Source of the DNA: Tribonema minus
Taxonomy: Eukaryota; Sar; Xanthophyceae; Tribonematales; Tribonemataceae
DNA: 64,000 nucleotides
NCBI GenBank assembly: GCA_017506865.1
Contig: JAFCMP010000098.1
Location: forward strand, 1-64,000
Direction: 5' to 3'
Each line of letters starts with the position of its first letter. Positions within the stretch are counted from its first letter, which is position 1. Positions 1 through 42,208 of the stretch are shown piece after piece. The notes under the pieces were generated by a model. The model had not been told where the DNA came from. It did not search any database and saw only the letters and a program-made list of their open reading frames with translations. A program made the translations under genes and the position numbers.

Positions 1-3000
1 TGCGCTGGCTCGCGGCGGGCGTGAGCCTGGGCGCGCTGGTGGCAATATGGCTCGTGCTGGTGGACAACGGGCGGCACATCGCGGGCGACGCGGCCGTGCT
101 CGCCGCGTTCGGCGTGTGCATGGCGGCGTGCGCGGCGCTCGCGTGGCACATGGAGGAGGTCAGTGCTCAGCTTCTTGTCTTCTTGAACATCAGGCACAAA
201 TAGACGATGCAATTGGGCGATGCTGTGTGCATGGCGGCGTGCGCAGCGCTCGCGTGGCACATGGAGGAGGTCAGTGCTCAGCGCGAAGTGTCATCGATGC
301 GCAGCTCCTTTGTGCGTCAGCGAAAGCAGCGACACGCATTCAAACCAGGCAGATGCAGTGATGGTCGCGTTTTCAGCGTGCGCGTGGCGGCGTGCGCGGC
401 GCTCGCGCGGCACATGGAGGAGGTCAGTGCTCAGTGCTTGCGCATGGCTCTGAAAAGTGATCGGGCTCGGGGTTCAGGACCGGCGTCGGCACTGCAAAAC
501 CTTGTGTCGGGTGTCACCGGTATGGTAGTGATGATGTGGTGACGTGGTGCTGTGCGCGTGGCAGCGTGCGCGGTGCTCGTGTGGCACGTGGAGGATGTCA
601 GTGCTCAGCGTGTGTCCTCAACGCCGGCTGCGTTCAATCACCGCAAAAGCACTTCGGCAGTGCAAGGCGGTCAAGGTCGTCAGAGCGTGCGGCTCTGATT
701 GCGCTGCGAGTGCGCAGGGAAGGGAGTGCTCTGAAGTACCTTAGTGTCGGAATGCACAACCATATTCTGAAGTTGCGAACGAGAGTGCAGGGTCCACAGC
801 TGAGCATCGCACGCACACGCAAGCCCTGCCCTGCATTGCAACGTAACGAACGCAGACGCCACGTTGGAGTCCAGGTCAGCGCACAGCGGACACGTGTATG
901 CTAGACCTCGAAACCGCCGTGTATGCTGGTGTCCAAGATGATGAAGTATGCTGTTGAAGTTGAAGCAGCGCTGCGCCGGCAGCGCAGCTTGTTGAAGTTG
1001 TGGTCTGATGTGCAGATGCGGCGATGGCTGATACGCGTACACAGGGCCCTGGATGAAGATTGACGGCGCGCCCTTGTGAAGGGCGGATCGTTGCAGCGCG
1101 TGTCCCCTGCATTGCATGTGCTCCCGTCACTCCCACCCCGGATCACAAGGCAGCTCCGCCAGAGCAGTTTTATGTCATCCATCTAAGGGTCAAAGCAGCC
1201 CCGGCATTGTCAAAGCGCACGTGGTGGTGCCCTTGGATTAGGGCTAGGGTAAGAGTTAGGGCTCTGCTGAGCGTTGCCACTCCACCATCAGCGCTGACTC
1301 TGCGATCATGCCATGGCACCGTCATGCAGAGTGCGTCGGGGCTGGGCTAGGGTTAGCCCATGCGTTCGAAACAGAACAACCTCATGAAGCAACAATGGTG
1401 ATGTGGGGTGATGTGGGGATTTCCTAGGGTTAGGTTTAGGGTGAGGGCTGCCAACGCCTGGCAGGCTTGCGGGCCGTGCCCATGTGGTGCATGTGATACT
1501 TCTTCCTATGTGAAGAGGAACTGTTTCGCTGGTGCCAACTTCACATTTGAGGTTACACCCCGCCATTCTCGACATGTGCTTCTGACCTGCACCCAACGTC
1601 ACCGCGTCAGCCATATAAACTGCCGCTCGAAGCGGAGTGCATATGTGTTGTCGCCAATGTATACCTGCCCATGCGCACATTGTGGTTGAGCGCTGCATGC
1701 CTGCACTCATTTTGCCGGTGCTGGCAGGTGTCGATGCTCGCTGCCTTCTCGGCGTTCGGCGCGCTGCTCATCAGGTATGAAAATGCCACTCTATGTATGT
1801 ACACATGCATGTATGCGCATGCGGACATCGCTTTCCGTTTTGCCTGGTCATCATACGCTTTTGCACAAGATACCATAATTAGTATGCATACACACATCAG
1901 TGATGCACTCCAATGCATATTGTGGAAGTATGTCACCGCAGTTTTGTATGCGTGCGTGCAGCCGATCCACCGATCGATAGCTCCAACATCCACCTAATGA
2001 TATTCCCCCTGCTGCCTCCTCGTCAGCTACGGTCTGGACGTGCTGCTGGGCGGCAGCCTCCTCCTGGACACAGGCGTCGTGCTGCAGCTCAAGTGGCCGC
2101 ACGGCGCGCACTGGCCTTGGCATCATGATACCATCATCAGTATGCATACAACCATTCGTCATGTACTTCAAAGTAGATGCATATGCCCGCAAGTACGTCA
2201 TTACAGTTGCCCAATGCACCGATCAGTGGAATCCGTCTTTTGCTCATCAGTATCCCCCCTAAACGCCTCCCCCCTCAGCTACGGTCTGGACGTGCTGCTG
2301 GGAGGCAGTCTCCTACTCGACACGGGCGTCGTGCTGCAGCTCAAGTGGCCGCATGGCGCGCACTGCCAGGGCGACTGCTACATGCAGGAGCTGCTCGGCG
2401 TGTGGGCGGTGCTGGCAGTGCTCGGCTTCCTCTTCCAGGGGCACGCGTCGGGCGCCAGCTCCGTGGCAGCGCTCTGCGGGTACGTATGCATGTATGTATG
2501 CTCACACGCGGCATGTATACCTACCTGCACACGTTCCAGGGGCACGCGTCAGGCGCCAGCTCCGTGGCAGCGCTCTGCACGTGCGAATGTATGTATAAAT
2601 GTTTACATGTGGCAGGTATACCTACCTGCACACATTCCAGGGACATGCGTCGGGCGCGAGCTCCGTGGCAGCGCTCTGCGGGTGCGTTCATATGTATGTA
2701 CCTCTATGTATGTGCAAATGCGGCGTGCATGCGTACCTGCGCATGTTCCAGGGGCATGCGTCGGGCGCGAGCTCCATGGCAGCGCTCTGCGGGTGCGTAT
2801 GTATGCATGCATCTGTGTATGTATGTTCACACACGACGCACTACGTGCACTCAACGCAAGCTCTCTGTGGCAGCGCCCTGCGCCAGCAAAGTGCACACGC
2901 TACTGCGCGACGACCTGTATATCTTTTATGCCTGCGCACGCGCGTCTGGCGTGCCGCGGCTACACCCCCCCCACTCCCCCAACCGCCTCTGCGCCAGTGG

Positions 3001-6000
3001 ATGCTCGTCGACGACCGCCGTATCCGATTGTATGCAACCAACTGCCCACACCCGGCTGTATTCTCAGTGCTCATGCACAAAACCTGATACAGGCGCTGCA
3101 CGGAGGGCGACGTCCCTCCCTTGCATGCCTACTTGCAACAGCCTATACCGCAACGAATTCTCGTAGACGACTGCCACTGCTTGCAACTGCCCACAGCTGA
3201 TCGTGTTCTTGTGTGCGTGCACCCGCCTTAGGTGCTGCATGGAGAGCTACATACCCCCCCCCCTCAACTGTCTACATTCAACTGCCTTCCCCTTAGTGGA
3301 ACCCCTTCGACGACTGCCGTATATCACTTACGCCGGCCCGCAGCTGATCGCATTCTCCTTGCTCATGCGCGCGTCCATACAGGCGCTGCACGGAAGGCTA
3401 TGTGCCCATTCCCGAGGCCGCCAAGGAGGAGTCGTCCTTTGGCATCAACGGCACGGGCCAGAAGACCTTCACGTACCCCGTCAACCAGGCCTACAACTAC
3501 TTCCACCCGGACCGGCTGCCTCCCGCGCTGCAGGCTTACGCGGAGGTCACCTACTTCACCGCCGAGCAGCTGGCCAACTTCTTCGGGTTCCAGGTACTGT
3601 TTGCACTTTTGACCCTGTGTGGTTTGCGCTGGCTAGGACGGCAGCGCAGAGGGTGTCGGTAGGTGCAAACGCATTTGATTTTGTCCACAGCGGTGCAGCC
3701 ACAGGCTGACGCGGAGGTCACCAACTTAACCGCCGAGCAGCTGACCAAGTTCTTCGGGTACCCGGGTACTCGCCCCCGATTCTGTCTTGTTTGCGCTGGC
3801 TAGGCCGGCATGTTGGTAGGTGCAAACGCATTTGTGTTGTCCACCTACTTCACCGCCGAGCAGCTGGCCAATCTCTTCGGGTTTCAGGTGCGCACTGCCC
3901 CTGTTGTTCGTCTGCGGGCTAGGTCAATAGCGCAAGAGGTAGGTGCAAATGCATTGTGTTGCCCACCGCAGAGCAGCTGCAGGTGCGCGCAAAGGTCACC
4001 TACTTCACCGCCGAGCAGCTGGCATCCTTCTTCGGATTTCATGAGCCATGAACGATCAAGCTTGCACTAGCTAGGCTGACATAGCAAATGGCTTTGGTAG
4101 GTGTGACTGGGGGAGCATTGCGGTTGATCTTGACAGGCGTAAACGCATGTGTAATTGTCACATCACGGTGCAGCCGCAGGTGAACGTGGAGGTCGCCAAC
4201 TTTTCCGCCGAGCAGCTGCCATTTCCTCTATACTGCATGAGCCATGAACTATGCAATTGCGCTTGCGCTGTCGCGTTGCGTAGGACGCCAGCGTGCCCAA
4301 CCTGCGACGTTCACGTCGCCAGCGAGCCCTGACCCCAGTTGTCGCGCTGCGCAGGTTGGCAGGGCAGGCGCAAGAAATGTTCTCACAAGCAGACAACACA
4401 AATCCGTGTGATTGAACGCCCGGATATGCTTGTGAGCCTAGGAATTTATTAATACATAATTCATTCCTCGACTGCTACTGGCTCTGTGGTGTCGCGCCGC
4501 ACAGGACGACGACTTGCTTTTATCGCCGTCGCCAGTGCGCCCCAACCTCAGTTGTCGCGCTGCGCAGGTCGACAGCGCGCGTGCGATTTTGTAGCGCGCA
4601 AGCAGAAAACGCAGCTCCGCGTGATTAAGCGCTGAGACGCTTGTGACCACAAAAGTAGAATTATATGCAGTGGCACTGTTTGACTCGTGGCCAGTTGCCG
4701 CTGCAGCGGCGATCACGCTCATTGGTGAAAGGTACTTCGAGGTGTTCAATTTGACGGCTACTACACCTTGTCACTCAGAGCTCTACGATCTTTTGATCCG
4801 TTTCCACATGAATAAATCATCAATTGATTGCAATTGGTGCTGCGGTGTCGCGCCGCGCGCAGGACGACAACGTGCGCAACCAGGTGGAGCACATACTGAG
4901 CCTGGTGGCGAACCACCGCCGCTTCTGCGACGCGCCGACGGCGTACGAGCCCTTCGACTTGCTGCCTTCCACGGGCGTCCACTCGCTGCACGCGCGGCTC
5001 TTTGAGAACTACAGGTGAGCCGCATGGCACCCTTGAAACACTGCGTGCAATCAAGGGGGTGTCGGCGTGCACTCGGCTCTTCGAGTACTACAGTGCAAAT
5101 ACAGGTCAGCGTTGCACGCGCGGCGCTGTCAGGAACTACAGGCCCGCCCAAGCGCCGAAGTCATTGGCTCGCGGCCGCGTTCAGGCCCGTACTTTTCTGG
5201 GGTATTGCACACATCCAAGGGGTGTCGGCGTGCACTCGCTGCACGCGTGGCTCTTTGAGAACTACAGGTGAGCCGCGCTGCAAACTCTGAAACACACATG
5301 ATAGATACATGCGTACCTTGAGAGTGTGACCTTTTCATTGTCACTTAGGGCACAAAAAAACCCAGATGGTGGACGTCCAGCTTGCTAACAGAATCCGCAT
5401 GCACTTTGTGCACACCTTGAAAATGTCTCAATGCGCGTTGACGATCACTTCTACACGACATGGCCAAAAGTGTACTTCAAGTATGATGATGAATGTTCCT
5501 CAAGAATTTGAGACTGCAGGTCGGGTGCAGCTCTCATCACCCTGGATGCCGAAATCCGTACGCAGACGCTCACGTGCTCCTGCAGACGAGGTATGGCGTA
5601 TTGTTGAAGTATACCTACCCAAAACGTGTGCTCAACGGGTGTCCGCTTGCTGCACGGGCTGCTCCGTGGAGACTACAGTGGTCAGCCACAGCTGCTCTGC
5701 CTTACTTTACAGTATAGGCTGTAGTCAAGCCAGGTTCCGGTGCTCACGCCTGTAAACTCCGTTGACAGCTCATGTGGGCGCATTCAGCACGGCTGCGTCA
5801 GGGTTAGGGTAAGGGTAAACCCTGTCTGCACGGATAACATCGCCTTTCACCCCCCTTGCTTCCCGTGTGCAGAGGCACATGGCGTGCGTCGCTGCTGCGC
5901 GCAGGGTCTGTCTGCAGTACGCTGAATGTGACGCCAAGACAGCAATCGTGCAGAAGCTTGCAGTATCTCAAGTAGATCTCGTGTGCGCACTCACTCTGCC

Positions 6001-9000
6001 CCCCCGCCCCCCCCCCTCCCCCCCACGATGCAGGGGGTGGTGCAAGACGCTCAATGTGCAGCCCAAGTTCACGCCGACGCGCGGCGGCGGCGCGCGCCGC
6101 GGCGGCAGCAGCAGCGGCGGCGGCGGCAGCGCCTTCGCTACGCCCACCAACCAGCAGGACGAGGTCTCTTCGCTCATGACGGACGTCATGCTGTACATGT
6201 GCGTCTGGGGCGAGGCGGCGAACCTGCGCCACATGCCCGAGAGCCTGTGCTTCCTGTACCACAAGATGATGCAGGAGTTCCTCGTGCACCGCGACGCGAC
6301 GGGCGAGCAGGCGGCGCTCTACGCGGGGTACTTCCTGGACCACGTCGTCACGCCGATCTGGGAGGTCGTGCTGCGCCACCACAAGGTCAAGGGCGACCAC
6401 GTCAAGGTGCGTCGCAAGGTTGGGTTGAAGTTGGGGTTAGGGTTAGGGTTAAGGTTACGGTTGAAGTTAGCGAGCAGGCGGCGCTGTACGCGGGGTACTT
6501 TCTGGACCACGTGGTGACGCCGATTTAGGAGGTCGTGCTGCGCCACCACAAGGTCAAGGGCGACCATGTCAAGGTAGGTTTTGGGTTTGAGATTAGGGTT
6601 GAAGTTGGGGTTAGGGTTGAGGTTAGGGCTGAAGTTAGCGAGCAGGCGGCGCTGTACGCGGGCCTCTTCCTGGACCATGTCGTCACGCCCATCTGGGAGG
6701 TTGTGCTGCGCCACCACAAGGTCAGGGGCGACCATGTCGAGGTGCGTCGCACCGGTAGGAGATTGAGTTGAAGGTAGGGGTTAGGGCTAGGGTTGAAGTC
6801 AACAAGCAGGCGACGGTGTACACACGGGGGCCACTGATTCGATCGCGCCGTGGCCAAGGTGTAGCAGGTCGTGCCACGCCAGCACAAGGTCAAGGGCAAC
6901 CACGTCAAGGTCAGTAATGAGCATGAGTGTGTAAGGTAGTGTCGGCGTTAGCCGACGGCTTAGCGTATTTGCCGCAGAAATGCGGGCACCTACCTTTGTA
7001 GGTGCGAGCGTGGTCGTGACATGCTCCTCCGTTTCTTTTGCATGCATGCATGCAGCCTTGCCTTCCTCATGCTCATCCGCCGTGCTTCAACTTTTCCCCT
7101 TTGTCGTGCAGGCTCGCAACTATGACGACTTCAACGAGTTCTTCTGGAGCCCTGCGTGCCTCAAGTACTCGTACCGCGACATTGACCAGGACGCCGTGCC
7201 GATGAGCGCTGCAAGCGCTCTTAGTAAGGTATGTATGCATGCCACAACAGACCTGGAGGAGGGCAAACATCGTGCTGCCGCCTGTCCACAGCGTTCGCTT
7301 TTGCTGTACATGTGTCCTGTTCAACAGATGTCACTGTGAAGTACTGCCAAATTAACTGTCAAGTAGAAGCGCATTTGTGACATGCGTCATCTCACGCGTG
7401 CGGGGTCCAAGTGCTTGTTCTGTTGATTGGCTGCAGCCAATGGCAGGTCCTCTTGTCGGTTTCACACTCCGAGATCAGTGAGATGCTGTGGGTAACTCGA
7501 AAAAACATGGTGGGCGCTGCTGCCGAGTCGTTTCGCACTGCTCTCAAGAACCGCCCCGGTACTGTTCCAGGCTCCTCAGCTTGGGTTGTCCCTGTCCTTT
7601 CTGCGTGTTCACCATCTGCGTTCCTGACCTCCCGCATTCACCGCGCTTCACCGCACGCCCACGCAAGCAGCTCCGCATGTCTTCGCCCCACCACCGAACT
7701 TGCACACCCCACCGCAGCCCAGCTCAGTTCGTCAATTGTGGAGCATCATCGCCTGTACACCAGAGCTTGTTCATACGCCTTCCACAGAGCACTCACGTAC
7801 CGCATCGTACGTGCCCCCCTCCCCCGTCTCTTTTACCCCCCCCCCCCCCCCCTCTGAGGTATCATACCTCCGGCTTGTTTGCCATCATTCGTCCGTCCTT
7901 CACAGAGCACTTACATACCGTATCGCCCGTGCCCCCCCCCCCCCCCCCCCCCCCCGCCCCCCTCTTCCCCCCTCTCTCCGGGGTATCCGGGGTATTTATA
8001 GGGGTACGGTCCGCCGCCGACGCTGCCCGTCGTTCCCGTCCACAAGGCGCTGGTCCGCGCGCCCAAGACCTTTCTTGAGAAACGTTCTCTGCTGAGCGCG
8101 GTCCTCACCTTCAACCGCATCCTCGAGTTCCACATCGTGACCTTCTACCTGTGCGGCATGTACGCGTTCGGCGACCTGCTCGTGTGGGACGCGCCCTACA
8201 TGCTGCAGATGCTGTCGTCCGTGTTCATAATCATCAACCTGCTGGGGCTCTGCTGGTGAGGCGACTTTCTTTCCTTTCGCGCTAGCGCATGTTGCAAGTT
8301 GGTAATGGCGTTGCATAGTGGTAGGCTCGGGTTGGCGCGCATGCATGCGGCGACGTGCGTGCCCTACATGCTGCAGATGCTGTCGTCCGTGTTCATCATC
8401 ATCAACCTGCTGGGCCTCTGCTGGTGAGCAATGGTGGTCGCATGCGCTTTCGCAACTCTCGCTAGTGTTGCTGAGCGGTAGCGCCAGGGTTAGGGTTAGG
8501 GTTTGCATGTACGCATTCGGCGACCTGCTCGTGTGGGACGCGCCGTACATGCTGCAGACGCTGTCGTCCGTGTTCATCATCATCAACCTGCTGGGACTCT
8601 GCTGGTGAGCGATTGTTTTTTCTTTCACACTAGCGCATGTCTCAAGTGTGAGATCAAAGATGCAAAGCGGCAAGTTAGGGTCGGGGACAGGGTAAGAGTG
8701 AGGGTAAGCAGATATGTGTTTTGGTGACCTGCTCATGTCGGACGCGCCCTACGTGCTGCAAATGCTGTCGCCCCGTGTTCATCGTCCGTGCTCAAGTTAG
8801 CTTGTTGTCAGGTATCATCTGGTGGAGTAATACCCCCCCCCCCCCACACACACACATGCACCACACACACAACCAGCCCGTGACCCCGTACACGACCATC
8901 TCATGGAATTAATACCACCCGCCCCCCCCCCCACACACACGCGCGCACCGCGTGCGCAGGTGCATGCTGGAGGTGTGGCAGGCGTTCCCCGGCATCAACA

Positions 9001-30000: not shown

Positions 30001-30951
30001 TGTACTCATGCCAAGATATACAACGAGTATCTTCTCAAAAAGCTGTCGACCTGCTCTTGCACTCGCTCTGGCAAAAACGCCGTCTAGCAGTGATCCAGGC
30101 ATTCAATACTCTTCAACAACTGCCAAACACGGAAGCATTGACCGGGCAGCCACTAAAGCCACTCACGGTGGATGCCATAACGTCCGACAAGGAAGCTAAT
30201 TTCCGGAGAAGCTCCTTTCTGCACATGCAGCTGGGCACTGACACCAGTGCTACAGGCGACCTAGTTCGTAAATATCAAAGTAATACTGTGAATCACTCCA
30301 ACAACGTCAAAGCATTGATGCGCGTTGAGGTACAATCCTCCAATAACGTCAAAGTGTCGATGAGGTTCGTTTACTCTTGCAATCAACAGCGGTGATGTTG
30401 TCCAGTGTCGCGTGGTATGGGCTACTATGTAGTTGCACCAGTTGCGCATACGCATGCACAACGGCCACCCCGACCTCTTTGACAAGGTAACGATGAATAT
30501 GTATGCAGTCCACTGAAGTCATAGCGGTTGCGAAGTATGATGGCAGTTCTCTTCTTGAAGTACCTACTCTTCCAAATAGGACAAATGATATTTAACGCTC
30601 GTCCAGTGGTGCGTGGTACAACTCCATGCCTGCTACAGCTGCGCATACGCATGCACTGTGGCCACGGACGACCTCTTTGACCAGGAAAATATGGATGTGG
30701 TGCTCCAATAACATCAACGCATTGATGGAAATTATCACCTCTTGCAATGAAGACAAATGACTTTACTCTTGTCCAGTAACACGTTGTAACGCGTGTTAAT
30801 CGCATGGCTGCTACCGCGGCGCATACACATGCGCTATGGCCACCCCGACCTGTATCACACGCAGCGGCATGTCAGTTTTCCTTTTCGGACTCTTCTCTTG
30901 CGGCGCATGCGTGATCATGACTTGACAGTCTGCTGCTGCCGCCGCCGCCGC

Positions 30952-30990
<39 letters not shown>

Positions 30991-33900: not shown

Positions 33901-36900
33901 TGTGTAAGAGTGCCTCGGACACCTGTATCCAGCCTGGCTGCACTCAACTTGAAGGAGGGCCTTGCACTGAATCTTGCTGAGTAACTGCAAGCATGCACGG
34001 TGCTGCGCCAGTGCGACGCCCCTCCCGTCAATTGCCAGGCGTTTGCTGGAGGTCGAGAGTCCGAATGGGCCATAGCGCAACCAAGCGGCGAGGGCCTCTC
34101 CCGCTGAAGGCACGCCGCTAGGCGACTGTCCACGCAACCAGGAGTACTGAACGCTCGCTTTGCGCGTGAAGATACACCGGCCGGCGCAGCTCTCAGCGAA
34201 CTGCCCCCAGCTCGAGTGGCGGTAGTAGAGGACACGCATGTAGATATGTTACGCCCGCTGAAGTGCACATGCACATTACCCTTTGGCAGACGGTCGAGAC
34301 CGATCCAGATGAATTTCAGCATGTTGCCCCGTCGTACCACAGCACCTTAAACCACAGCATGTTATCCGTCGCACGATCAAGGCCCCATTCATACCCCCCC
34401 CCCCCCCCCCACCCCACCTCCCCTTGTGCGCTGGTACCCCCCCCCAGGTGTCCTGAACACACTGCCCATGCTGGCGACGCTGATGGTGGAGAAGGGTCTC
34501 AGGGCAGCGCTAATCACGGTGGGGCAGGTCTTTGTCAGCGGCGGCCCCATGTACTTCATGTTTCACATCCAGACGCGCGCGCACTACTTCTACCAGACGC
34601 TCCTCGCCGGCGGCGCGCAGTACAGGTGAGTCCAGCGCTGGACTCAGTTACAGTACTTCCATGTACCAGACGCTCCTCGCTTGAACTCAGTCACAGTATT
34701 CATGGACTGCATGTACCAGACGCTCCTCGCCGGCGGCGCGCAGTACAGGTGAGTCCGCTGCTGGACTCAGTTAGAATTCATGGCTGAACTCCATGCACCA
34801 GACGCTCGTCGCCGGCGGCACGCGGTACGATGTAAGTCCACCGCTGAACTAATTCGGCGGTACGCAGTTTGATGTTCACCGCGTCTCATCAGGCGTCTGT
34901 GTCGTGCTGAGCGCGCTTGCGACGGAAGCGCTTATGCGACGCTCCCATACGGCCGTTCTCCACAGCGCATTGCTTGCCATTTGTCGCTTGGCATGCCGTC
35001 GTCTGCTGCTCCGCGACACAAATAAGCCCTAGGGCCGGCATCGTACCTAGGGTCAGGGTTAGGGTTTAGCATGCCGCACTGCAAGCAGAGACACTTTTGC
35101 GTGTTCTGCCACCGCACCTGCTGGTGACAGCCACTGCTGCGGCATATTGCATGTGCTTCCTGGGCAATCTGCCACTTCCCTCCCTTTGTTCCTGGAGTGT
35201 AAGGCAGAGTGCTTCGCTTGAACTGCGCCGATTGTGATGACAGGCGCACTCGCCGCTGCCGCGGCTTGCCGCCACTGCCGCCGCCGCCTCTGCTGCTGCT
35301 GCCGCTTCGAAGACGCATTCGTACATCTTCCTCTTCGATGTATGAATCGCAAGAGGTCATGTGCTGCCACATCCACACATCTCGGCCTGACCAGACCATT
35401 GCTGCACCAGAATGTGCATGCAGACAGGTGCACTGCTATGCTTTTTTTTCTTGCATTGCGCTCGTCACTGCCGCTACCTACATGCGCATGTAACTGCCGC
35501 GCTACCGCTGCTGCCGCCGCCGCTGCTGCTCGTTCTGCGCGCGTGCGCCGCCGCCGCCAGGGCCACCGGGCGCGGCTTCGTCACGCACCACTCTTCCTTC
35601 GATGACCTCTACCGCTTCTTTGCGACGAGCCACTTCTACCTGGGCTTTGAACTCGGTGTCGCGCTGGTGATCATGGCCTTCATGACTTCTGCACACCAGT
35701 ACTTCGGCCGCACGTGGTCGCTGTGGCTGGCGTGCGTCTCGTTCCTCTTCGCGCCGTTCTGGTTCAACCCGCTGTCGTTCGAGTGGGGCAAGTGCATGGA
35801 CGACTACCGGCGGTGGTGAGCGCTGCTGAACGGTAACCCTAATAATGCTAGCCCTACACGTAGGAACTACCTCGCTGTGGCTGGCGTGCATATGGTTCCT
35901 CTTTGCGCGCCTCTGGTACAGCTTGATGTTCTTTGAGTGGGGCAAGTGCATGGGCGACTACAGGCGGTGGTGAGCACTGCTTAACCGTAACTCCCATCTT
36001 GAAGCTAACCTTGAGGCTAGGGCTGCATTCGGCCGCTGTTGCTAGCGTGCGTGTCATGGCTCTTCTCGCAATTCTGATTCAACTCGCATTTGAGTTGAAG
36101 TGGGCACGTGCATGGACGATAGCAGTGGTGTCTCACCTTTCCAACGATGAAATCAAGCCGTTTCTGTAATCAACAGTTGACTCTTCTTACCGGCGTCGGT
36201 GATCAGTGCTGCACATGGGCCCAGCCTCCCGCATGGACTGTGTATGTACTCATTTCGCGGCTCAGCTTAAGAGGAAGCCTCTGCTTGTAGTGATGCTCCG
36301 AGCACACAGGATGCCGTTCACGTACTGTGTACTCCTTTGACTGAACAGTGTGTACTGCGAATGTACTGCCCTGTGTGATGCTCCATTTGCGGCAGCGCTG
36401 TTCCTTGCGCACACGGCACGATGAATCCGCCGTGTACTGTGTACTGTTCACCTGAACCGTATGCACTGCAGCTGTACTGTGCACTCGCTGTACTCATTCA
36501 AATGAAGCGTGTGCACTGCAGCTGTGCGGCTCGCTGTGGCTCTCGGGTCATGATCGCGGTGCAAAACGCCTGAGATGTCCTGTGCCCTGCGTTGCTGTAT
36601 CTTCATGTCACCATGTGGTGACAATGCTCTATGTTGTGCAGTCACGGTAAGCTGCATTGAGCACTGCGGTTCTGTTTCTCCTGATGATAGTGCTCTGCGC
36701 GCGCAGTGCAAGTTGTGTTGTGCACCCAGACTGAGCGGTGTCATGCGTGATCGCCCTATGTCTTCATCTATTTTTGATGACAAAGAAGGATTTCAATTTG
36801 TACTTCATGTATATCCGTGAACGTTTAGTTTATACTTCTATGAAATGAAAATAATACTTCGAAGTATATACGAGCATACCAGTCACCAAACAACAAACGT

Positions 36901-39900
36901 ACCAGTAACCCACTGCGGTTGCCTCATATTGTCGATGCATGCGCAGGGTGCGGTAGATGAGTGGCACGGGGGGGGTAGTTATCTGTTATTGACAAGAAAT
37001 GACTTTACGTTTGTACTTGTATGTACTTTCCGTGAAGGCCTTAACTTACTTTAAATAGAAACAATATATACGAGCATCACCGTCACCAAACAACAAACCT
37101 ACCAACGACCCGCCTTGGGTACCTCATTTTATCGATGCTCTCGCTGCGTGCGCAGGGTGCGGTGGATGAGCGGCACGGGGGGCTCCAGCAGCAACAGCTG
37201 GGACGTCTGGTGGCGCGAGGAGAACCTGTACGTGAGCAAGTTTGGCCTTGGACAGAAGCTGCAGTGCATGCTCAAGCCCGCCTTCTATCTGGTGGTCGGG
37301 GTGAGTGCCTTAAGGAGCGCACTTTGCTGCACGATTTGTGTGAAGTATGTCTTGAAGTATACACAGGTAGCACACGTAGCATAATGACAGCGTAAGTGTC
37401 GTCTTCATTCATGGTACAAAGTTCACCCTCACTCATTCATTCATGAGCGATTGTGCCGCGTGGGGCACAACATCCCCGTTGGTCTGAAAATGCATCAGGC
37501 ATTTCAGGACAGCGCAAAGTACTTCTTTGTGGATACAGAGTTCCCCTCACTCACTCAGTCATGAATGATTCATGAATGATTCATGAATGATGGTGCGCAT
37601 CTCAGGTGGGCATCGCCGCGCCCAAGCTGGCCAGCCTGCAGGGCCTCAAGCCCAAGGAGTACTGGGCGATAGGGGAGATGAGCGCGCTGGCGCTGTTCCT
37701 GCTGGTGGGCTACTACATCATCGACCGCTGCGGCCAGAGCTTCGCGCCGTGGGTGCGCCGCTCGGGTGAGGAGCGCTGCTGCCAATGCACAGGCTTCGAC
37801 TTTCATTCTACGTACATATCATGTATTTATCAGTAGTCAGGTCTCACGCGTAGTCTAAGTAGAGCGTCGCGCCGTGGGTGCGCCACTCGGGTGAGGAGCA
37901 CTGCCGATTTATGCGCTTCGATCCGCAGTGTCACGTTTCTCGATAGTCAAGACTGCTGCTGATATACGTGCAGCGGCCTTCAGTTCATATAAAGTACATA
38001 CTTGCAGCTTCATGCTTCTCAATAGTCAAGCCTCACGCGTACGTCCTTCGTGTGGAAAGTGCTGATCCTGATGAATAACTGCCGCAAAGGATGTGGTGAC
38101 GTAGCTCAACACAACGTGGCAGTGTTGTACTTCAGAAGCACTTGGAAGCAGGCAATGTTGATACTACCCAGTGCGTCACAGAGCCTGCCTGACCTCGAAC
38201 CTCCGGCACCACTGCATACAATGCTTCAGCAGATTATCATCAGTTCTCTGTGCTCACACAGCCTCGCATTTCAACTCGTGCCACCCGCTTGCCAGGGAAA
38301 CTGCTAATCTCGACGGCCGTGTTCTACGGCGGCGTGTACCTCATGGTCACCGAGTACGAGTACATCCGCATCGCCATCGGCCTCTACTACGTCATCTCCG
38401 CGGTCGGCAGCGTGAGCGTGCTGCTGGGCTTCGAGGGCATCCGACACGCATACCACATCCACGACTTCATACTGGGCAACATCATGTTCCTGGTGCTCTT
38501 CGTAAGTGACCGCGCGCATGCAACCTGTCTGCGCTGTTGCAACTCGCTGGTGCTGTTGCATTTTCCTGGCGCTCTTCGCAAGTGGCTGCGCGCGTGCGAC
38601 CTGTCTGTGCTGTTGCGCGTGCCCTGCGTGAAGTTGAAGGTACAACTTCAGGAAGGTGCACGCAGCTGCCATTGCGCTGTGTATAGCTCGCTGCCATCGT
38701 GTGCCACTGAGTGGGGTGTGATCTGCGCGCAGGGTGGCCACGCCCCGAATACACACATAGACACTGACGAAACTAAACACCGTGGCAGAGTAGGACACCC
38801 AAGGTGGACCCAATGCAAAGCACTAGACCAGGGCAGGCTGGTATTGCAAAGAAGTGATTATTATGTAGATGCTTGTGCAAGTGGAGAAACAGTCCTGACG
38901 CAGGGTCGGAATGGTGCTGAACTGGTGCTGGACCAGTACATGGTGGACTAACAAGAGTAACTCCACTGTGGTGAGAACCTAAAAAAAAGTACTGTGCAGG
39001 TATGTAGGCACATGCAAGTAGGGTATGTAGGTTTCATACTCCGTCAGACACATACACACATACCCCCGTGCACGCCCACAATGTGCCCAATGTCATGGCA
39101 GCGGCTGCGTCGCAATGCAGCTGCGGCTGTGTGAGGCGTTCGAGCGCCCGAGAGCAGACGAAGTGCGTAGGCACTGCATCGTTCAAGAACGCAATGCTTT
39201 GTAAGCGACAGCCCACTGCTACCTCTATCACGACCCTCTCTGCCTTTGCGGCGACATGGTGTTTCGCTTTCATGAACGTAATGCTCATGTGCGCTACTTT
39301 ACAGTACAGCAAACTGCTACTGTACTTCTATCATAACCCCCTGTGCCCGTGGTGTTTGTGCCCGTGGTGCTCCGCTTGTAAAAACGTGATGCTTGTGTGA
39401 GCTACAGTCGACTGCTATCATAACACTCCATCCCTGCGTGGCGACGTAATGTTCCATTGCAGTTCTTTGCGGCGCTGCAGCTGCGACCACGGTTATAGGT
39501 GCAAGGCATCCAATTTGGCTAACCACACCTTGTCACTTAGAACTCTACAATGTTTTGATTCGTTTCCATAACCCTCCGTGCCTGCGTGGCAACGTGATGT
39601 TCTGTCACAGATCTTTGCGATGCTCACGTAAGCCACAGCCAACTGCTACTTCTATCATAACCCCATGTGCCTGTGGCGTTCCGCTTTCAAGAACGTGATG
39701 CTTGTGTGAGCTACAGTCAACTGCTACTATAACCTTCCGTGCCTACGTGGCGACGTGGTGTTCCACTTTCAAGAACTTGAGTTACAGTCAATTGCTATTT
39801 TAACTCCTCCGTGCGTGTGTGGCGACGTGGTTTTCTGCCGCAGATCTTTGCGATGCTCATGTAAGCTACAGCCAATTGCTACTTCTATCATAACCCTATG

Positions 39901-42208
39901 TGCCTGTGGCGTTCCGCTTTCAAATACGTGATGCTCATGCGAGCTACAGTCAACTGCTTTCATAACCTTCCGTGCCTGCGCGGCGATGTGATGTTCCACT
40001 TTCAAGTCCGCGGTGCTCCACTTTCAAAAACTTGAGCTACAGTCCACTGCTATAATAGCGCTTCATGCCTATGTGCCTACGTGTTGTTCCATTGCAGATC
40101 TTTGCGGCGCTGCAGCTGCCCAAGAACGTGCAGACGTGGCTGCTGTTCCACAATGCGCTGAGCCAGGGCGTGGTCATCGAGGACATTCTCAAGTACGCGC
40201 GCCGCACGCAGGAGCAGAGCAAGAGCGAGGACGTGGACGACACGGCGATTCTCAAAAAGTACCTCAGGACGCAGGTGCGGATACACCACGCACACACACA
40301 CACATACGAAGTGCTTATTTTGAAGTATGTGCATGTGCTTCTGTATACTTTGAAGTGCAAGGCATGCTGGGTTGTTGATCAGAGGACGTGGATGACACGG
40401 CAATCCTCAAAAAGTACCTCAGGACGCAGGTGCGCATACATGCCACACGTTCGCCACATACTTGTACCTCGTAGTTTTTGTGTACTTTGAAAGACAAGAC
40501 ACGGATCAAAGGACGTCATACGTACATTACTTTGTTGTTATGTACATTTTGAAGTACAACACATGGTGGATTGTTGTGGAGCAGAGCAAGAGCGAGGACG
40601 TGGACGACACGGCAGTTCTCAAAAAGTACCTCAGGACGCAGGTGCGCATACATCACACACACATAGAAGTATATGTATATATACATACGTGCACTTGTAT
40701 ACTTTAAAGTTCAAGACAGTAGATGAGAGGATGTAGATGAAGCTGCAACGCCCAAGAAGTACCTCAGGACGCAGGTGCGCATACATGCCACACACATAGA
40801 AGTATACATGTATATATATACATGTATATATATACATGTGTGTACTTTGACCTATGAAACGTGGTGGGTAGTTGAGGATCAGAGGACGTTACACGGCAAC
40901 GCTCAGGGAAGTACCTCAGGACGCAGGTGCGCGTACGTGACACACGTACACCATATGTCTCTACCCGTATTTGATGTATTCTGTAGTTTATGCATATTTA
41001 GAAGTACAAGACGTGGTGATTGATTGTGGATGAGAGGATTGACGACACGGCGATGCTCAAGAAGCACCTCAGGGCGCAGGTGCGCATACATCACACACAC
41101 ATATATACTGAGATGTACCCGAACATTGTATATACCTCAGAAGTATATGTATGCTTGCAGGGCAAGTCGTGGTGCAAATTCACAGATCAGCTGTCTCCTG
41201 CTATTCCATCCACAGCAAGATCAGCCAAGAATCCAGGATGCTGCTCCATGAACACCTCAGGGCGCAGTGAGCACTGCAAGAATTACCTGGAAGTGAAGCA
41301 GTCGTTGGGCTCAGCCGAAAGTGAAGCAGCAGGTTTGGTGGTCTGCTTGCTTGCTGAGCGAGCGCACCTGCTGACCATCATCATGGCGACCAGGCTAGGC
41401 TAGCGAAATTGTGCACTATTGGGCGTACATCCTGAGCGTTTCAGCAGCATCAGCGCTGCCAGCAGCGCGCGTGGACTTGCAAACACGAAGGCTTGCGTCG
41501 AGAGGCAGTTGCAAGCATTCAATGCCCACCGCTCCGCCCCATACCAGACCACGCACTGTTGGTCTGCAATCACACACCCAAGACCTAGTGCACCATCTGC
41601 GGACTCCGCCTCTGCGCCGTCACCACCATCCACTGCAACCGCACGACTACATCAGTGGCGCACTCAGCACTGCCTGCTCTCATTCAAGAGCAATGTACTT
41701 TTGACATACTTCTATGGAATACAGTCCGCACGTCACACATACACATTCACATGATTGAACGGTGCACGTTCCGACAGCCATCGTCAACTGGCGCTGACCC
41801 CCCCCCTTCCTCCCCCCCCCCCCCCCCCGGAATCGGCAGGAGCAAATGCTGCAGAAGCTCCTGGCAGACAGCGGCGATGTCCTGGGGCCAGACGACGTCA
41901 TCATCACCAATGGCAGCAGCGCTCAGTTTGGCGGCGGCGGCGGCGGCGGCGCTGCGCCCGCGCCGTTCCTCACCATGGACCTGGCCATGGAGGAGGAGGG
42001 GGGCGAGGGGGACGGCGGCAGCAGCGTTCAGCAGGCGAGCATGATGCGCGCGTCCAAGAGCACGCTGGACCTGTCGCAGATGGCGTCGATCAGCACGCGG
42101 CGGCAGCAGGCGGAGGCTGCGGCGGCGGCGGCGGCGGCGGCTGCGGAGGGCGGCGGGGGGGCGTACTCGTTCAGGGGTCCCAGCGAGTTTCCCCCCAGAG
42201 ATGCGTAA
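1..42208 (+). CDS. 1,3-beta-glucan (callose) synthase, GT48/FKS family, 5'-truncated by window, 36 exons
   Basis: Integral plasma-membrane enzyme polymerising UDP-glucose into 1,3-beta-glucan. Exons: 1-158, 1728-1774, 2279-2479, 3383-3593, 4863-5014, 6034-6406, 7112-7228, 8002-8255, 8960-9068, 10064-10290, 12116-12338, 13052-13207, 15016-15167, 16594-16828, 17658-17771, 19474-19682, 20576-20777, 21259-21480, 22097-22233, 23355-23430, 24391-24597, 25463-25609, 26656-26751, 27650-27805, 28671-28853, 31172-31273, 31829-31915, 32629-32793, 33543-33618, 34448-34625, 35561-35815, 37156-37300, 37606-37765, 38296-38501, 40098-40274, 41840-42208. All use GT-AG and all phases agree, giving about 2,093 codons to a TAA. 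Plant callose synthases are about 1,950 residues. Family hallmarks seen: [12 protein letters not shown] (FKS1 domain 1), [74 protein letters not shown]. The start lies upstream of the window. Exon copies inside introns complicate prediction; isoforms are possible. Confidence 0.95.
159..1727 (+). repeat. Intron 1 with three decayed copies of exon 1's 3' edge
   Basis: Copies of the last ~45 coding bases plus the GTCAGTGCTCAG donor lie at about 225-282, 377-435 and 548-609. They get less exact with distance from the exon. Short GGGTTAG-type runs occur near 1230-1262, 1345-1360 and 1420-1443. I see nothing else in the remaining ~1 kb. Confidence 0.85.
1868..2378 (+). repeat. 252-bp tandem duplication covering intron 2 end and exon 3 start
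   Basis: The acceptor CAG and first ~95 bases of exon 3 (real copy from 2279) are also present from 2027, and intron sequence ahead of each (GATACCAT near 1869 and 2128) is duplicated too. Offset between exon starts is 252. The first copy has no donor, so it probably competes only as an alternative acceptor. Confidence 0.85.
2480..3382 (+). repeat. Intron 3: four copies of exon 3's 3' end, then acceptor-side copies of exon 4
   Basis: Donor-side copies at about 2533-2582, 2632-2688, 2746-2797 and (partial) 2862-2886. Acceptor-side copies of the intron end and exon 4 start begin near 2990, 3165 and 3300; the one at 3089 repeats GCGCTGCACGG of the real exon start at 3383. The six-frame reading through this array is open by chance because the units repeat in one frame. 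Confidence 0.85.
3594..4862 (+). repeat. Intron 4: four copies of exon 4's 3' end and a copy of exon 5's acceptor
   Basis: Copies of the segment coding [14 protein letters not shown] occur at about 3707-3770, 3841-3895, 3990-4045 and 4166-4220. A copy of the exon 5 acceptor (CGCCGCACAGGACGACGAC) is at 4493-4511. The stretch 4677-4810 is a dispersed repeat listed separately. Confidence 0.85.
4677..4810 (+). repeat. Dispersed repeat family A, copy 1
   Basis: Starts near GTTTGACTCGTGGCCA and ends near CTCTACGATCTTTTGATCCG. The same order of blocks is found at 18552-18668 and, shortened, at 39482-39570. Confidence 0.7.
5015..6033 (+). repeat. Intron 5: copies of exon 5's 3' end
   Basis: Copies of the [16 protein letters not shown] end lie near 5061-5095, 5110-5147, 5220-5285 (best, donor retained) and 5635-5690. 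A dispersed repeat occupies about 5345-5480. GGGTTAGGGTAAGGG is at 5801-5816, and a C-rich tract at 6000-6025 precedes the acceptor. Confidence 0.8.
5345..5480 (+). repeat. Dispersed repeat family B, copy 1
   Basis: GGGCACAAAAAAACCCAGATGGTGGACGTC core followed by AAAATGTCTCAATG and ACACGACATGGCC blocks. A similar order occurs at 23128-23225. Confidence 0.6.
6407..7111 (+). repeat. Intron 6: three ~100-bp copies of exon 6's 3' end, separated by TTAGGG-like runs
   Basis: Copies at about 6470-6576, 6640-6743 and 6805-6912 repeat the [31 protein letters not shown] region and donor with rising divergence. Each spacer is a degenerate GGGTTAGGG/GTTGAAG run (for example 6433-6462, 6595-6630). Confidence 0.85.
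7229..8001 (+). repeat. Intron 7: duplicated pyrimidine-rich acceptor region
   Basis: Two related blocks, about 7774-7858 and 7888-7975, each have CACAGAGCACT, a CCGTATCGCCCG-like stretch and then a long C tract. No copy of a coding edge was seen in 7229-7770. Confidence 0.6.
8256..8959 (+). repeat. Intron 8: three copies of exon 8's 3' end
   Basis: About 8340-8430, 8502-8612 (near-exact over ~100 bases with donor) and 8705-8800 (decayed). They repeat the [16 protein letters not shown] and following helix-coding region. GGGTTAGGGTTAGGGTTT occurs at 8489-8503. Two C tracts followed by CACACA lie at 8830-8870 and 8920-8945. Confidence 0.85.
9069..10063 (+). repeat. Intron 9: donor-side copies of exon 9 and acceptor-side copies of exon 10
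   Basis: The CTACCAGGTGAGCGCTGCTG donor recurs at about 9240-9262 and 9404-9425. Copies of the exon 10 start ([10 protein letters not shown]) appear at about 9574-9635, 9750-9805, 9840-9890 and 9945-10000, improving towards the real exon at 10064. Confidence 0.8.
10291..12115 (+). repeat. Intron 10: six tandem copies of exon 10's 3' end; long unexplained remainder
   Basis: Copies of the [23 protein letters not shown] edge plus GTGAGC donor start near 10385, 10530, 10645, 10775, 10890 and 11010, period about 115-145. From 11100 to 12050 I see no exon copy, only a ~64-bp direct duplication around 11578-11705 (GCGCGCTTCGTC...). C tracts at 12063-12110 precede the acceptor. Confidence 0.85.
12339..13051 (+). 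repeat. Intron 11: copies of exon 11's end and exon 12's start
   Basis: Donor-side copy at about 12598-12655. Acceptor-side copy of exon 12 (CAGGTGTTCATCTACCTC onward) at about 12864-12922, followed by a duplicated intron segment (CATACCTAAGTACC near 12920). Confidence 0.8.
13538..13808 (+). pseudogene. Intronic ORF remnant, possibly the C-terminal end of a retroelement protein
   Basis: An open frame inside intron 12 reads [20 protein letters not shown] and ends in KLLGHSAD* at 13808, without an upstream partner domain. The PF-x-E-S-x-GRLG pattern and the helical, Ala/Leu/Arg-rich remainder remind me of the end of reverse-transcriptase ORFs in algal non-LTR elements, but this is a weak recollection, not a match I can verify. 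It differs from its surroundings in having no exon-copy content. Confidence 0.35.
14193..14231. repeat. Head-to-head telomere-like palindrome
   Basis: GGGTTAGGGTTAGGGTAAG is followed directly by CCCTAACCCTAACCCTAAG, i.e. inverted TTAGGG arrays of about three units each in intron 12. Confidence 0.85.
15168..16593 (+). repeat. Intron 13: acceptor-side copies of exon 14
   Basis: Copies of CAGGCCCCAGCGCCAGATCG and following coding bases at about 16283-16350 and 16438-16510, with poorer ones near 15690-15770, 15912-15940 and 16105-16200. Each is followed by a GTACAC...CACTTG spacer. The block 15190-15480 matches nothing I recognise. GGGTTAGGGTTAG lies at 15641-15665. Confidence 0.8.
15815..15870 (-). 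repeat. Dispersed repeat family B, inverted core
   Basis: CATGGACATCCACCATCTGG and GCTTTTTCATGCCCTGAGCGAGAA match the reverse complement of the family B core at 23128. Confidence 0.55.
16829..17657 (+). repeat. Intron 14: short copy of exon 14's donor
   Basis: CACACCATGGCCGACGAGGTATGCATG at about 16974-16999 repeats the end of exon 14. Nothing else recognisable was seen in 17000-17650. Confidence 0.6.
17772..19473 (+). repeat. Intron 15: copies of exon 15 and acceptor-side copies of exon 16
   Basis: A near-exact 74-base copy of exon 15 at 17876-17949 has both AG and GT, but 74 is not a multiple of three, so inclusion would shift the frame. Poorer copies lie at 18040-18120, 18220-18275 and 18345-18412. 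Acceptor-side copies of exon 16 lie near 18895-18945, 19046-19112 and 19270-19330. A perfect 30-bp direct duplication sits at 18728-18787. Confidence 0.85.
18552..18668 (+). repeat. Dispersed repeat family A, copy 2
   Basis: Shares GTTTGACTCGTGGCCAATG, a GGCGACCACGGTTATTGGTG block and CTAGAGCTCTACGATCTTTT with copy 1 in the same order and orientation. Confidence 0.7.
19683..20575 (+). repeat. Intron 16: exon 16 donor copies and three CCG-rich acceptor copies
   Basis: Donor-side copies at about 19738-19790 and 19848-19885. Three tandem blocks starting near 20205, 20373 and 20490 share CATTCGCAGCA, ACCGGAYRAAGGGGG and a CCCCCGCCGCC tract; the last one runs into the real acceptor at 20574-20575. 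Confidence 0.8.
20778..21258 (+). repeat. Intron 17: copies of exon 17's end and exon 18's start
   Basis: About 20935-21002 repeats the [16 protein letters not shown] end; about 21045-21135 repeats the acceptor and first ~75 bases of exon 18 ([11 protein letters not shown]). A C tract at 21201-21230 precedes the real acceptor. Confidence 0.8.
21481..22096 (+). repeat. Intron 18: short acceptor-side copy of exon 19
   Basis: GGCGGCGCCTGACGTTCTTCG at about 21886-21907 repeats part of exon 19 (RRLTFFV). Also CATGTATGCATGCCAAC-type short repeats at 21985-22035. Confidence 0.6.
22234..23354 (+). repeat. Intron 19: near-exact copy of most of exon 19
   Basis: About 22330-22430 repeats the [21 protein letters not shown] region through the donor with very few changes. 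A donor-only fragment lies at 22272-22296 and a decayed copy at 22540-22620. No acceptor is evident immediately upstream of the best copy. A dispersed repeat lies at 23110-23230 and a C tract at 23318-23344. Confidence 0.85.
23128..23225 (+). repeat. Dispersed repeat family B, copy 2
   Basis: GGGCGCGAAAAAACCCAGATG core, then AAAGTGTCCCAATGGCAAGTAC and AAACGACGTCGCCG. Its core is found inverted at 15819-15855 and 27238-27283. Confidence 0.6.
23431..24390 (+). repeat. Intron 20: donor-side repeats and acceptor-side copies of exon 21
   Basis: GCAATGCTCAGCTCGT / GTCAGTGCTCAGCTCGT-like units recur at 23440-23735. Copies of the exon 21 start (ALYKHDWHN) at about 23920-23955, 24098-24145 and 24238-24290 come before the real exon at 24391. 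Confidence 0.8.
24598..25462 (+). repeat. Intron 21: copy of exon 21's end, a MITE-like insert and triplicated C tract
   Basis: About 24672-24722 repeats the [22 protein letters not shown] sequence. A MITE-like element is at 24949-25281. The motif CCTCACATCA(C/T)CAACACCATGACC followed by C runs is repeated near 25352-25383 and 25411-25450. Confidence 0.8.
24949..25281. mobile_element. MITE-like element with terminal inverted repeats
   Basis: AGACCCAGTCTTAACCGG at the left end is the exact reverse complement of CCGGTTAAGACTGGGTCT at the right end, ~330 bp apart, inside intron 21. The interior has no transposase-sized ORF and lacks the C tracts and exon copies that surround it. I could not find a clear target-site duplication. 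Confidence 0.65.
25610..26655 (+). repeat. Intron 22: copy of exon 22 with both splice sites; copy of exon 23 start
   Basis: 25685-25743 repeats the [26 protein letters not shown] part and is flanked by AG and GTGAGC; its 59 bases would shift the frame. A decayed copy is at 26145-26180. An acceptor-side copy of exon 23 ([12 protein letters not shown]) is at about 26490-26530. GTGCGAGTGA-type units recur between 25610 and 25860. Confidence 0.8.
26752..27649 (+). repeat. Intron 23: exon 23 donor copies and an exon 24 acceptor copy
   Basis: AAGGTCTACAGGATCAAGGTGAG at about 26884-26906, and decayed copies near 26972-27000 and 27120-27155. The exon 24 start ([11 protein letters not shown]) is repeated at about 27446-27484, before the real exon at 27650. 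Confidence 0.85.
27236..27290 (-). repeat. Dispersed repeat family B, inverted core
   Basis: GACATCGACCATCTGGGCTT followed by a T run and GCGCCC matches the reverse complement of the core at 23128. Confidence 0.55.
27806..28670 (+). repeat. Intron 24: two in-frame 27-base copies of exon 24's end
   Basis: 27898-27924 and 28022-28048 each repeat the [15 protein letters not shown] end, are flanked by AG and GT, and are 27 bases in phase 0, so either could be spliced without breaking the frame. G tracts at 27836-27850 and 28077-28102 separate them. Confidence 0.8.
29184..29624. repeat. Nested foldback (inverted repeat) element
   Basis: The outer arm at 29184-29237 (AAGTGGACGAGATTGAGTTG through GTCAGTGGGGAC) recurs inverted at 29571-29624 and directly at 29423-29475. 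Two inner hairpins, 29245-29409 and 29482-29567, have arms AAGCTGAWGCGGCCC...CACTGGCCA and their complements. The internal CACACTGGCC/CATGGCC motifs repeat many times. Confidence 0.85.
30953..30991. repeat. CTG trinucleotide microsatellite
   Basis: About 13 consecutive CTG units in intron 25; neighbouring DNA at 30940-31015 and 31118-31145 is also CTG/CCG-rich. Confidence 0.9.
31274..31828 (+). other. Intron 26: no recognisable content
   Basis: No exon copy, repeat or coding segment was recognised between exons 26 and 27 here. Confidence 0.5.
31916..32628 (+). repeat. Intron 27: acceptor-side copies of exon 28
   Basis: Weak copies of GGCGCTGCGGAGCAGTCGCTG occur near 32078-32100, 32153-32175 and 32489-32515, with related flanks (CTGCTGCCTSTRCTCGCAC). 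GGTTAG-like runs lie at 31993-32030. Confidence 0.65.
32794..33542 (+). repeat. Intron 28: decayed copy of exon 28's end
   Basis: About 32870-32915 repeats the [17 protein letters not shown] end. GGGTTAGGGTTAGG is at 33131-33145 and a related run at 33317-33360. Confidence 0.65.
33619..34447 (+). repeat. Intron 29: short tandem units and an unexplained block
   Basis: A ~19-base unit (TACTTCAATTGCTTCGCTG and variants) is repeated five times at 33638-33732. The block 33885-34225 is unlike its surroundings and carries a 136-codon minus-strand reading that I cannot identify. A C tract at 34396-34412 precedes the acceptor. Confidence 0.6.
34626..35560 (+). repeat. Intron 30: three copies of exon 30's end
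   Basis: Copies of the [18 protein letters not shown] end lie at about 34662-34681, 34710-34755 (near-exact with GTGAGTCC) and 34794-34838. GGGTTAGGG occurs at 35056-35065, and CTG/GCC triplet-rich DNA at 35255-35310 and 35500-35560. Confidence 0.85.
35816..37155 (+). repeat. Intron 31: copies of exon 31's end and exon 32's start
   Basis: About 35870-35985 repeats the [15 protein letters not shown] to RRW region and donor; about 36035-36140 is a more decayed copy. Near the 3' side, 36820-36985 and 37035-37195 are a tandem pair that includes the acceptor and start of exon 32. Variants of TGTACTG recur at 36320-36520. Confidence 0.85.
37301..37605 (+). repeat. Intron 32: short tandem ATGAATGATTC
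   Basis: Three consecutive ATGAATGATTC units at about 37561-37592 lie just before the acceptor. Confidence 0.7.
37766..38295 (+). repeat. Intron 33: copy of exon 33's end
   Basis: CGTCGCGCCGTGGGTGCGCCACTCGGGTGAGGAGC-like sequence at about 37866-37901 repeats the FAPWVRRS end and donor. Confidence 0.8.
38502..40097 (+). repeat. Intron 34: tandem array of exon 35 acceptor region
   Basis: From about 39215 to 40085 a degenerate unit recurs many times: CCGTGCCTGCGTGGCGACGTG, GTTCCACTTTCAAGAACGTGATG, then CTACAGTCAACTGCTAC and ATCATAACCC. Several units contain the CAG|ATCTTTGCG start of exon 35 (39456-39480, 39608-39625, 39839-39858). A donor-side copy of exon 34's end is near 38556-38586. Confidence 0.85.
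39482..39570 (+). repeat. Dispersed repeat family A, copy 3 (5'-short)
   Basis: Begins at GCGACCACGGTTATAGGTG and continues through CCTTGTCACTTAGAACTCTA to TTTTGATTCGTTTCC, lacking the first ~30 bases of the other copies. Confidence 0.65.
40275..41839 (+). repeat. Intron 35: array of exon-35-like micro-exons
   Basis: Segments 40385-40429 (45 bases), 40585-40641 (57), 40730-40774 (45) and 40885-40926 (42) repeat the end of exon 35. All start after AG, end at GTGCGC, are multiples of three and are open in phase 0. A further copy at 41037-41085 is out of frame, and 41250-41270 is a fragment. An ATATACATGT dinucleotide-like run lies at 40806-40842 and a C tract at 41800-41828. Confidence 0.85.

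Follow-up and report, generated by a model that had tools for sequence, protein, structure and literature searches.

Exon-edge copies in the introns of a Tribonema minus glucan synthase gene: probable relics of serial tandem duplication across exon-intron borders

The introns of a glucan (callose-type) synthase gene of Tribonema minus contain copies of the exon edges that adjoin them, and our analysis confirmed that these copies are real. We hypothesize that the arrays arose by serial small tandem duplications, each spanning an exon-intron border, and are now relics of them, and we assign a probability of roughly 0.8 to this reading with the mechanism proposed below. The gene lies in the window analysed here, a stretch of 64,000 nucleotides corresponding to positions 1-64000 of contig C98 in an assembly of 158 Mb and 554 contigs.

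The gene model was obtained with a small gene finder trained on the window, and was then corrected by hand and with a paralogue on contig C334, where most exons from position 7112 on have a homologous exon and the exon 15016-15167 has none. The coding model of about 6.2 kb is without frame error and gives a 2055-codon open frame without the use of any copy, the model having been picked to keep the frame. Two submitted parts of the protein (719 and 697 residues, not the whole protein) matched FKS1_dom1 and Glucan_synthase in Pfam. At its start within the window (27-2438, the first three exons) the frame carries a TM7S3/TM198-like membrane domain (Pfam E 2.6e-7), which is either a fusion or a neighbour gene merged by the model. 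A 35-exon model underlies the first copy counts and the splice dinucleotides, and a 36-exon model all later analyses. Synonymous and frame counts, indels and private or shared sites refer to all 77 copies; spacer homology, simulation, flank identity and the strict intron count to the 69 copies no more than 6 nt from the edge; GT and AG retention to the 67 copies no more than 4 nt from it; and the outgroup analysis to the 51 copies with an exon counterpart in C334.

In a comparison of exons with introns by Blast (35-exon model), same-strand copies of the adjoining exon edge were found in 28 of the 34 introns tested. Donor-side copies, which repeat the 3' end of the upstream exon, occur in 23 introns, and acceptor-side copies, which repeat the 5' end of the downstream exon, in 14. 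The control set of 1122 non-adjacent exon-intron pairs produced one match, and 20 shuffles of all introns produced no adjacent match. Under the strict rule (a copy no more than 6 nt from the edge, 36-exon model) 27 of 35 introns hold 69 copies. The original prediction of about 30 of 35 introns was therefore right in kind and slightly high in number, and the shuffled-intron control proposed with it turned out in its favour. So did the self-comparison of the window, in which direct repeats dominate (149 pairs, 140 of which lie within 1 kb, compared with 5 inverted ones); dinucleotide shuffles, five per sequence, gave no repeat pairs. At 10291-11085, where six copies had been claimed, five lie beside the true edge and a sixth was not detected, while the four copies claimed at 14287-14920 were all found before the true exon at 15016. 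Before complexity filtering there were also 60 inverted matches, and the ten listed all join exon index 4 (6034-6406, GGC-rich) to introns 23 and 28. The low-complexity filter, applied only in the per-exon comparison of C98, C18, C334 and C533, left on C98 76 adjacent matches versus 3 elsewhere on the plus strand and 3 inverted ones. The direct orientation of the copies and their adjacency to the source are those expected of tandem genomic duplication. The copied exon parts have a median length of 47 bp (range 21-104), and the period of the units has a median of 164 bp (quartiles 134-193), close to the nucleosome repeat length. The arrays are listed in Table 1. Elsewhere in the window, the predicted exon 44816-44957 encodes a candidate MYB-like motif, which we take to be of the SHLQKY type.

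Table 1. Exon-edge copies in the glucan synthase gene and local repeats in two neighbouring genes (window positions; gene names of the neighbours as in the original prediction)
Feature	Coordinates	Strand	Remarks
Glucan (callose-type) synthase gene	27..42168	+	36 exons, 35 introns; 5' side cut by window start
Intron 0, three donor-side copies	225..596	+	of exon end at 158; 225-269, 355-422, 552-596
Intron 1, one acceptor-side copy	2027..2113	+	of exon starting 2279
Intron 2, three donor-side copies	2534..2792	+	period ~101-111
Intron 3, three edge-reaching donor-side copies	3702..4042	+	fourth truncated at 4173-4218
Intron 4, two donor-side copies	5227..5678	+	
Intron 5, three donor-side copies	6470..6909	+	period 168; telomere-like intron part
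Intron 7, two donor-side copies	8358..8604	+	exon part 95%; truncated third at 8720-8782
Intron 8, two acceptor-side copies	9582..9976	+	
Intron 9, five donor-side copies	10391..10940	+	near to far 98, 85, 81, 85, 75%
Intron 10, one donor-side and one acceptor-side copy	12596..12915	+	
Intron 11, two donor-side copies	13324..13982	+	
Intron 11, four acceptor-side copies	14290..14916	+	of exon starting 15016
Intron 12, two acceptor-side copies	16286..16503	+	
Intron 14, two donor-side copies	17878..18113	+	acceptor-side at 19070-19129, 19281-19331
Intron 15, two donor-side copies	19738..19879	+	
Intron 16, one donor-side and one acceptor-side copy	20940..21127	+	
Intron 18, 58-bp tandem duplication across donor, then two donor-side copies	22217..22611	+	
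Intron 19, two acceptor-side copies	24103..24267	+	
Intron 21, donor-side copy	25673..25743	+	134-bp tandem unit; acceptor-side copy 26492-26528
Intron 22, two donor-side and one acceptor-side copy	26880..27485	+	
Intron 23, two donor-side copies	27892..28048	+	
Intron 24, four donor-side and one acceptor-side copy	28984..31066	+	
Intron 27, one donor-side copy	32855..32908	+	
Intron 29, two donor-side copies	34706..34830	+	
Intron 30, donor-side and one acceptor-side copy	35872..36973	+	truncated second donor-side copy 36031-36119
Intron 32, one donor-side copy	37861..37890	+	
Intron 33, short acceptor-side copy	39463..39484	+	
Intron 34, five donor-side copies	40382..41079	+	
Maf-like gene, local direct tandem repeats	48818..49380	-	overlapping predicted exons
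GTPase-like gene, local direct tandem repeats	57071..57682	+	overlapping predicted exons

The copied unit includes intron as well as exon. Of 69 source-copy comparisons, 51 show homology in the intron part as well and the remaining 18 no recognisable intron part, and a local-alignment test of neighbouring units finds homology there in 42 of 69; most units are therefore tandem duplications that straddle the exon-intron border. Inside the exon the similarity ends abruptly, with a flank identity of 0.556 against a background of 0.568, a sharp end such as would be expected at a duplication breakpoint. With regard to a cryptic acceptor just 5' of the donor-side copies, AG is absent from the eight commonest preceding dinucleotides. 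No new intron position was seen in the exon-level comparison, where exons pair 1:1 across the 25 matched introns of C98 and C334. The copies are partial, and they lack the combination of full exon, both splice sites and open frame that marks mutually exclusive or duplicated exons. Dispersal of the introner type was searched for with two arrays: 10291-11085 matched only itself, an exon of the paralogue and, through its own telomere-like start, two short stretches, and 22143-22433 only itself, the neighbouring copy and the paralogue.

Judged from their alignments, the copies look like decaying relics. Over 3989 aligned columns of exon parts the 77 copies show 389 differences, of which 174 are synonymous, 210 are non-synonymous and 5 are changes to a stop; all 12 indels in the copied exon parts break the frame, none being a multiple of three. 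Of the 77 copies, 12 carry a stop or differ in net length by other than a multiple of three; in our reading of the alignment, the first copy of intron 5 has an in-frame stop. The claim that copies are most exact beside the exon and decay with distance was upheld, since, of the 21 arrays of at least two copies, 17 have a nearest copy that surpasses the farthest in exactness and 3 show the opposite (Wilcoxon p=0.0025); from one copy to the next outward, identity falls 19 times, rises 13 times and is unchanged twice. Copy ages vary (dispersion 1.88). With the C334 exons as outgroup (51 copies, 2525 sites), 175 changes fall on the copy side, 50 on the exon side and 37 elsewhere. At the 518 sites where the exons of C98 and C334 differ, the copy has the C98 base in 431 cases, the C334 base in 50 and neither in 37, and the copies are therefore younger than most of the divergence between the paralogues.

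Could the exon parts have been refreshed after they were duplicated? Over all 69 anchored copies the exon parts are 0.906 identical to their source and the spacers about 0.66, and in the 51 cases with homologous spacers the mismatch is 0.230 in the spacer and 0.093 in the exon part, a ratio of 2.48 (95% interval 2.07-3.06). Well-kept exon edges between poorly kept spacers may arise without any refreshing, because the exon is frozen while intron parts decay on both lineages; by our own arithmetic this predicts a ratio of 1.6-2, which the aligned value would exceed modestly rather than greatly. Decay of all parts at one equal rate was tried and rejected, as it leaves a residue: the spacer identity of about 0.66 is below the simulated 0.74-0.92, a gap that the evenly spread simulated ages exaggerate and that becomes modest once only homologous spacers are used. 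Two copies with exon parts of 96-97% (introns 14 and 18) have no recognisable spacer homology. In the alternative that we regard as possible but rather doubtful, tandem duplication was followed by ectopic gene conversion with the exon as donor, and conversion halted at the splice site because the intron parts were too diverged. Such conversion would agree with a spacer identity (0.66) that is nearly constant over all four classes of exon identity, with the predominance of private differences, and with the acceptor-side copies of intron 11, which equal the exon at 56/56 and 55/56 sites beside a spacer mismatch of 25-31% and appear in the alignment to have a common copy-specific junction. However, the differences show no mosaic clustering (longest clean run 0.380 versus a random 0.369 ± 0.012), all five copies of intron 9 have in common a base that is absent from the exon, and the ratio of 2.48 requires just a small extra effect.

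Whether the exon-intron border is a preferred place of duplication bears on the next alternative, in which duplication is not random but aimed at active borders through breakage coupled to splicing, chromatin or R-loops. Before masking, 35 border arrays stand against 10 clusters internal to introns, and differing sites in arrays of at least two copies are mostly private (240 versus 35 shared), as if each copy had been templated by the true edge and not by a copy made earlier. Exon edges owe part of their prominence to selection, under which the exon is frozen whereas the intron parts decay on both sides, and when exon-derived bases were masked, so that both kinds were equally detectable, the excess shrank, leaving 16 arrays at borders and 10 internal clusters (at a looser threshold, 22 and 12). 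If placement were random, 0.2-0.95 border arrays would be expected for each internal one, depending on the unit and the original intron length. Over this range, p for the border excess runs from 4e-6 (null 0.25) to 0.13 (null 0.95, the most generous) at the stricter threshold and from 2e-8 to 0.045 at the looser one. A true border preference is at most suggested by these counts, and we consider targeted breakage unlikely. We give similarly little credence to the wider idea that some genes experience a distinct, recurrent mutational regime, with breakage at working borders duplicating the border intronward, so that the introns form a one-way, age-ordered record of exon-edge duplications.

Serial duplication followed by decay also has to be weighed against function. 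The copies could serve as alternative exon ends or recursive splice sites, and indeed 39 of 47 donor copies retain GT and 19 of 20 acceptor copies retain AG, while the synonymous share of the differences is 0.45 in all 77 copies and 0.54 in the 47 copies of at least 90% identity, compared with 0.26 expected for a single neutral lineage. The GT retention, however, matches that of ordinary exon dinucleotides (0.81; the corresponding value for AG is 0.80), and the share of 0.45 lies roughly where it is expected (0.41, by our own arithmetic), because the exon itself gains synonymous changes; the share of 0.54 is somewhat higher than this expectation, and for it mild constraint or a codon-position mutation bias is possible. 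Together with the uniformly frame-breaking indels, the partial nature of the copies and a reading frame that is complete without them, this makes a functional role very improbable. Least credible is an artefact of assembly or of collapsed haplotypes: some near-identical contig pairs do seem to be present in the assembly (C70/C489 and C490/C296, with equal scores), but the 389 differences stand beside an error-free coding model of 6.2 kb, two genes are affected while two paralogues are nearly clean, and four queries from affected regions found no second full-length copy elsewhere in the assembly.

The duplications have left their mark on intron length. In the 25 matched introns the median is 862 bp in C98 and 406 bp in C334 (p=1.2e-5), and the excess over C334 rises with copy number (rho 0.58, p=0.002). 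This tracking of length by copy number and the homologous intron parts in 51 of 69 comparisons agree with the original proposal that introns grow by repeated tandem duplication across borders. As to such duplication being the main source of intron length, it does contribute, but by our own arithmetic 40 copies of 164 bp amount to about 6.6 kb and so cover about half of the 11.7 kb excess in these introns. Local direct repeats make up 13,183 of the 35,975 intron bases of the gene, and 3,608 bases are exon-derived.

The phenomenon is patchy. Copies were found for 28 of 36 exons in C98 and 13 of 15 in the paralogue on C18, versus 2 of 28 in C334 and 2 of 13 in C533, the exon lists of C18 and C533 being incomplete ones from homology and the gene finder. 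Counted by introns, C334 has a match in 2 of 27, one of which reaches the edge; one of the two matches in C533 stops short of it. Beyond the window, 203 kb plus small loci were sampled from the genome. The places of 11 loci were chosen blind to sequence; several are on contigs already known from earlier matches, and all are on contigs of more than 120 kb because 6 of the 12 places asked for lay beyond shorter contigs. Local direct repeats cover 26% of locus L017 and 21% of L021, and no more than 6.4% of each of the other nine. The idea of a genome-wide habit was not sustained by these loci and the two nearly clean paralogues.

Affected pieces tend to carry telomere-like repeats. The motif GGGTTAGGG occurs 22, 17, 9 and 9 times in four pieces of C18, 13 times in L017 and 6 times in L021, and its count is 0 in the pieces with the C334 and C533 paralogues. 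Over 25 pieces, repeat coverage correlates with its count (rho 0.73), pieces of one gene not being independent; among the 11 sampled loci alone rho is 0.40 (p=0.23), and L019 is clean despite 5 sites. Within the gene, 11 of 16 telomere-repeat clusters fall in array spans, which make up 48% of the intron bases, so that there is no clear excess. Genome-wide, GGGTTAGGGTTAGGGTTAGGG has 3848 forward and 4719 reverse overlapping matches, and a reversed control has 0; it is found inside contig C1 (31 places among the matches listed) and in an array starting contig C2, which opens with TTAGGG repeats. Poly-C and CTG words, too, are plentiful in the affected introns, and they are absent from the 25 commonest 9-mers of the C334 introns, and long poly-C in the introns of the gene accounts for 139 overlapping CCCCCCCCC words. 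We read poly-C, CTG and telomere repeats as a regime of fragile DNA in certain genes, and the co-occurring interstitial telomere repeats hint at break repair.

The sampled sequence held further features. Two short stretches, L017:8200-8270 and L017:8802-8891 (~70 and ~90 bp), have copies of 78-91% identity on dozens of contigs (at least 41 matches listed, with 40 of 174 candidates scored), and could be small mobile or introner-like elements. By eye, a predicted protein of L022 resembles a retroelement reverse transcriptase. The contig pairs C70/C489, C490/C296 and C1/C79 have equal or nearly equal matches to light-harvesting genes, which suggests uncollapsed haplotypes or recent duplication. 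The best matches of the light-harvesting proteins, by summed domains, were polyproteins of Euglena, followed by chains with the labels ACPI and CAC, which are probably cryptophyte; the phycoerythrin family PF02972 yielded no match, and neither did its control.

The mechanism that we propose for the arrays consists of serial tandem duplications of roughly 80-250 bp, whose two breaks lay in an exon and in the intron next to it. Splicing would presumably go on using the original, outer site every time and leave the protein unchanged, and the copy with its spare splice site would turn into intron. Purifying selection would then freeze the exon, so that an exon copy would decay along a single lineage, but the intron parts along two. 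New copies would come mostly from the exon edge itself, the exon being the probable usual template, and because they arise there, older copies would be pushed outward and the introns lengthened. The events appear concentrated in certain genes, in which interstitial TTAGGG repeats and simple repeats tend to be present. The probable trigger would be the repair, by fill-in and end joining, of fragile DNA that has suffered staggered breaks or paired nicks, and telomerase may occasionally add repeats during such repair. In plants, duplications arise from paired nicks or staggered breaks. The analysis provides support for this account in the border-spanning units, their decay, the loss of frame in many copies, their recency, the gene-wise patchiness and, over the compared pieces, the co-occurrence with telomere repeats.

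What makes introns longer where mobile elements play no part is a question that these arrays address. Next to every array the frozen exon serves as an internal reference, and it reveals old duplications otherwise lost. Because affected and nearly unaffected paralogues with corresponding introns share one genome, it is possible to date the process, to estimate its rate and to search for its trigger. The arrays also raise the question of how so many intact duplicate splice sites are passed over by the splicing machinery.

Repeats tied to splice sites are familiar from introner elements and from repeat-flanked introns. Introner elements form a dispersed family, whereas the copies described here are local and come from the edge of each exon itself. 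Among the open-licence PMC papers listed, no title or abstract beginning presented the serial duplication of borders as a general way in which introns become longer. An accepted way for genes to acquire introns is tandem duplication (PMC3443670). The systems in that source resemble ours in that small tandem genic duplications are absorbed by splicing with the protein unchanged; they make new introns, whereas here existing introns were lengthened on both sides, repeatedly and in most introns of the gene. The Drosophila cases of intron sliding and tandem duplication (PMC2891723) likewise show tandem duplication supplying intron sequence, but they are few isolated events in coding sequence. Telomere repeats are known to be inserted at double-strand breaks, with flanks duplicated at a few sites (PMC7215372). 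Common to both genomes are internal TTAGGG repeats, there sometimes with direct duplication of the flanks; duplication alone is given for 3 of the 66 loci tabulated in that paper, whereas here duplications are the main feature and telomere repeats their companion. The closest published case among these sources is the potato RdRp gene, where a new intron came from a tandem duplication that crosses from intron 1 into exon 2 (PMC4974935). There too the unit spans the border and carries splice signals; it was a single event that gave a new intron, while the glucan synthase gene holds dozens of copies and no new intron was seen.
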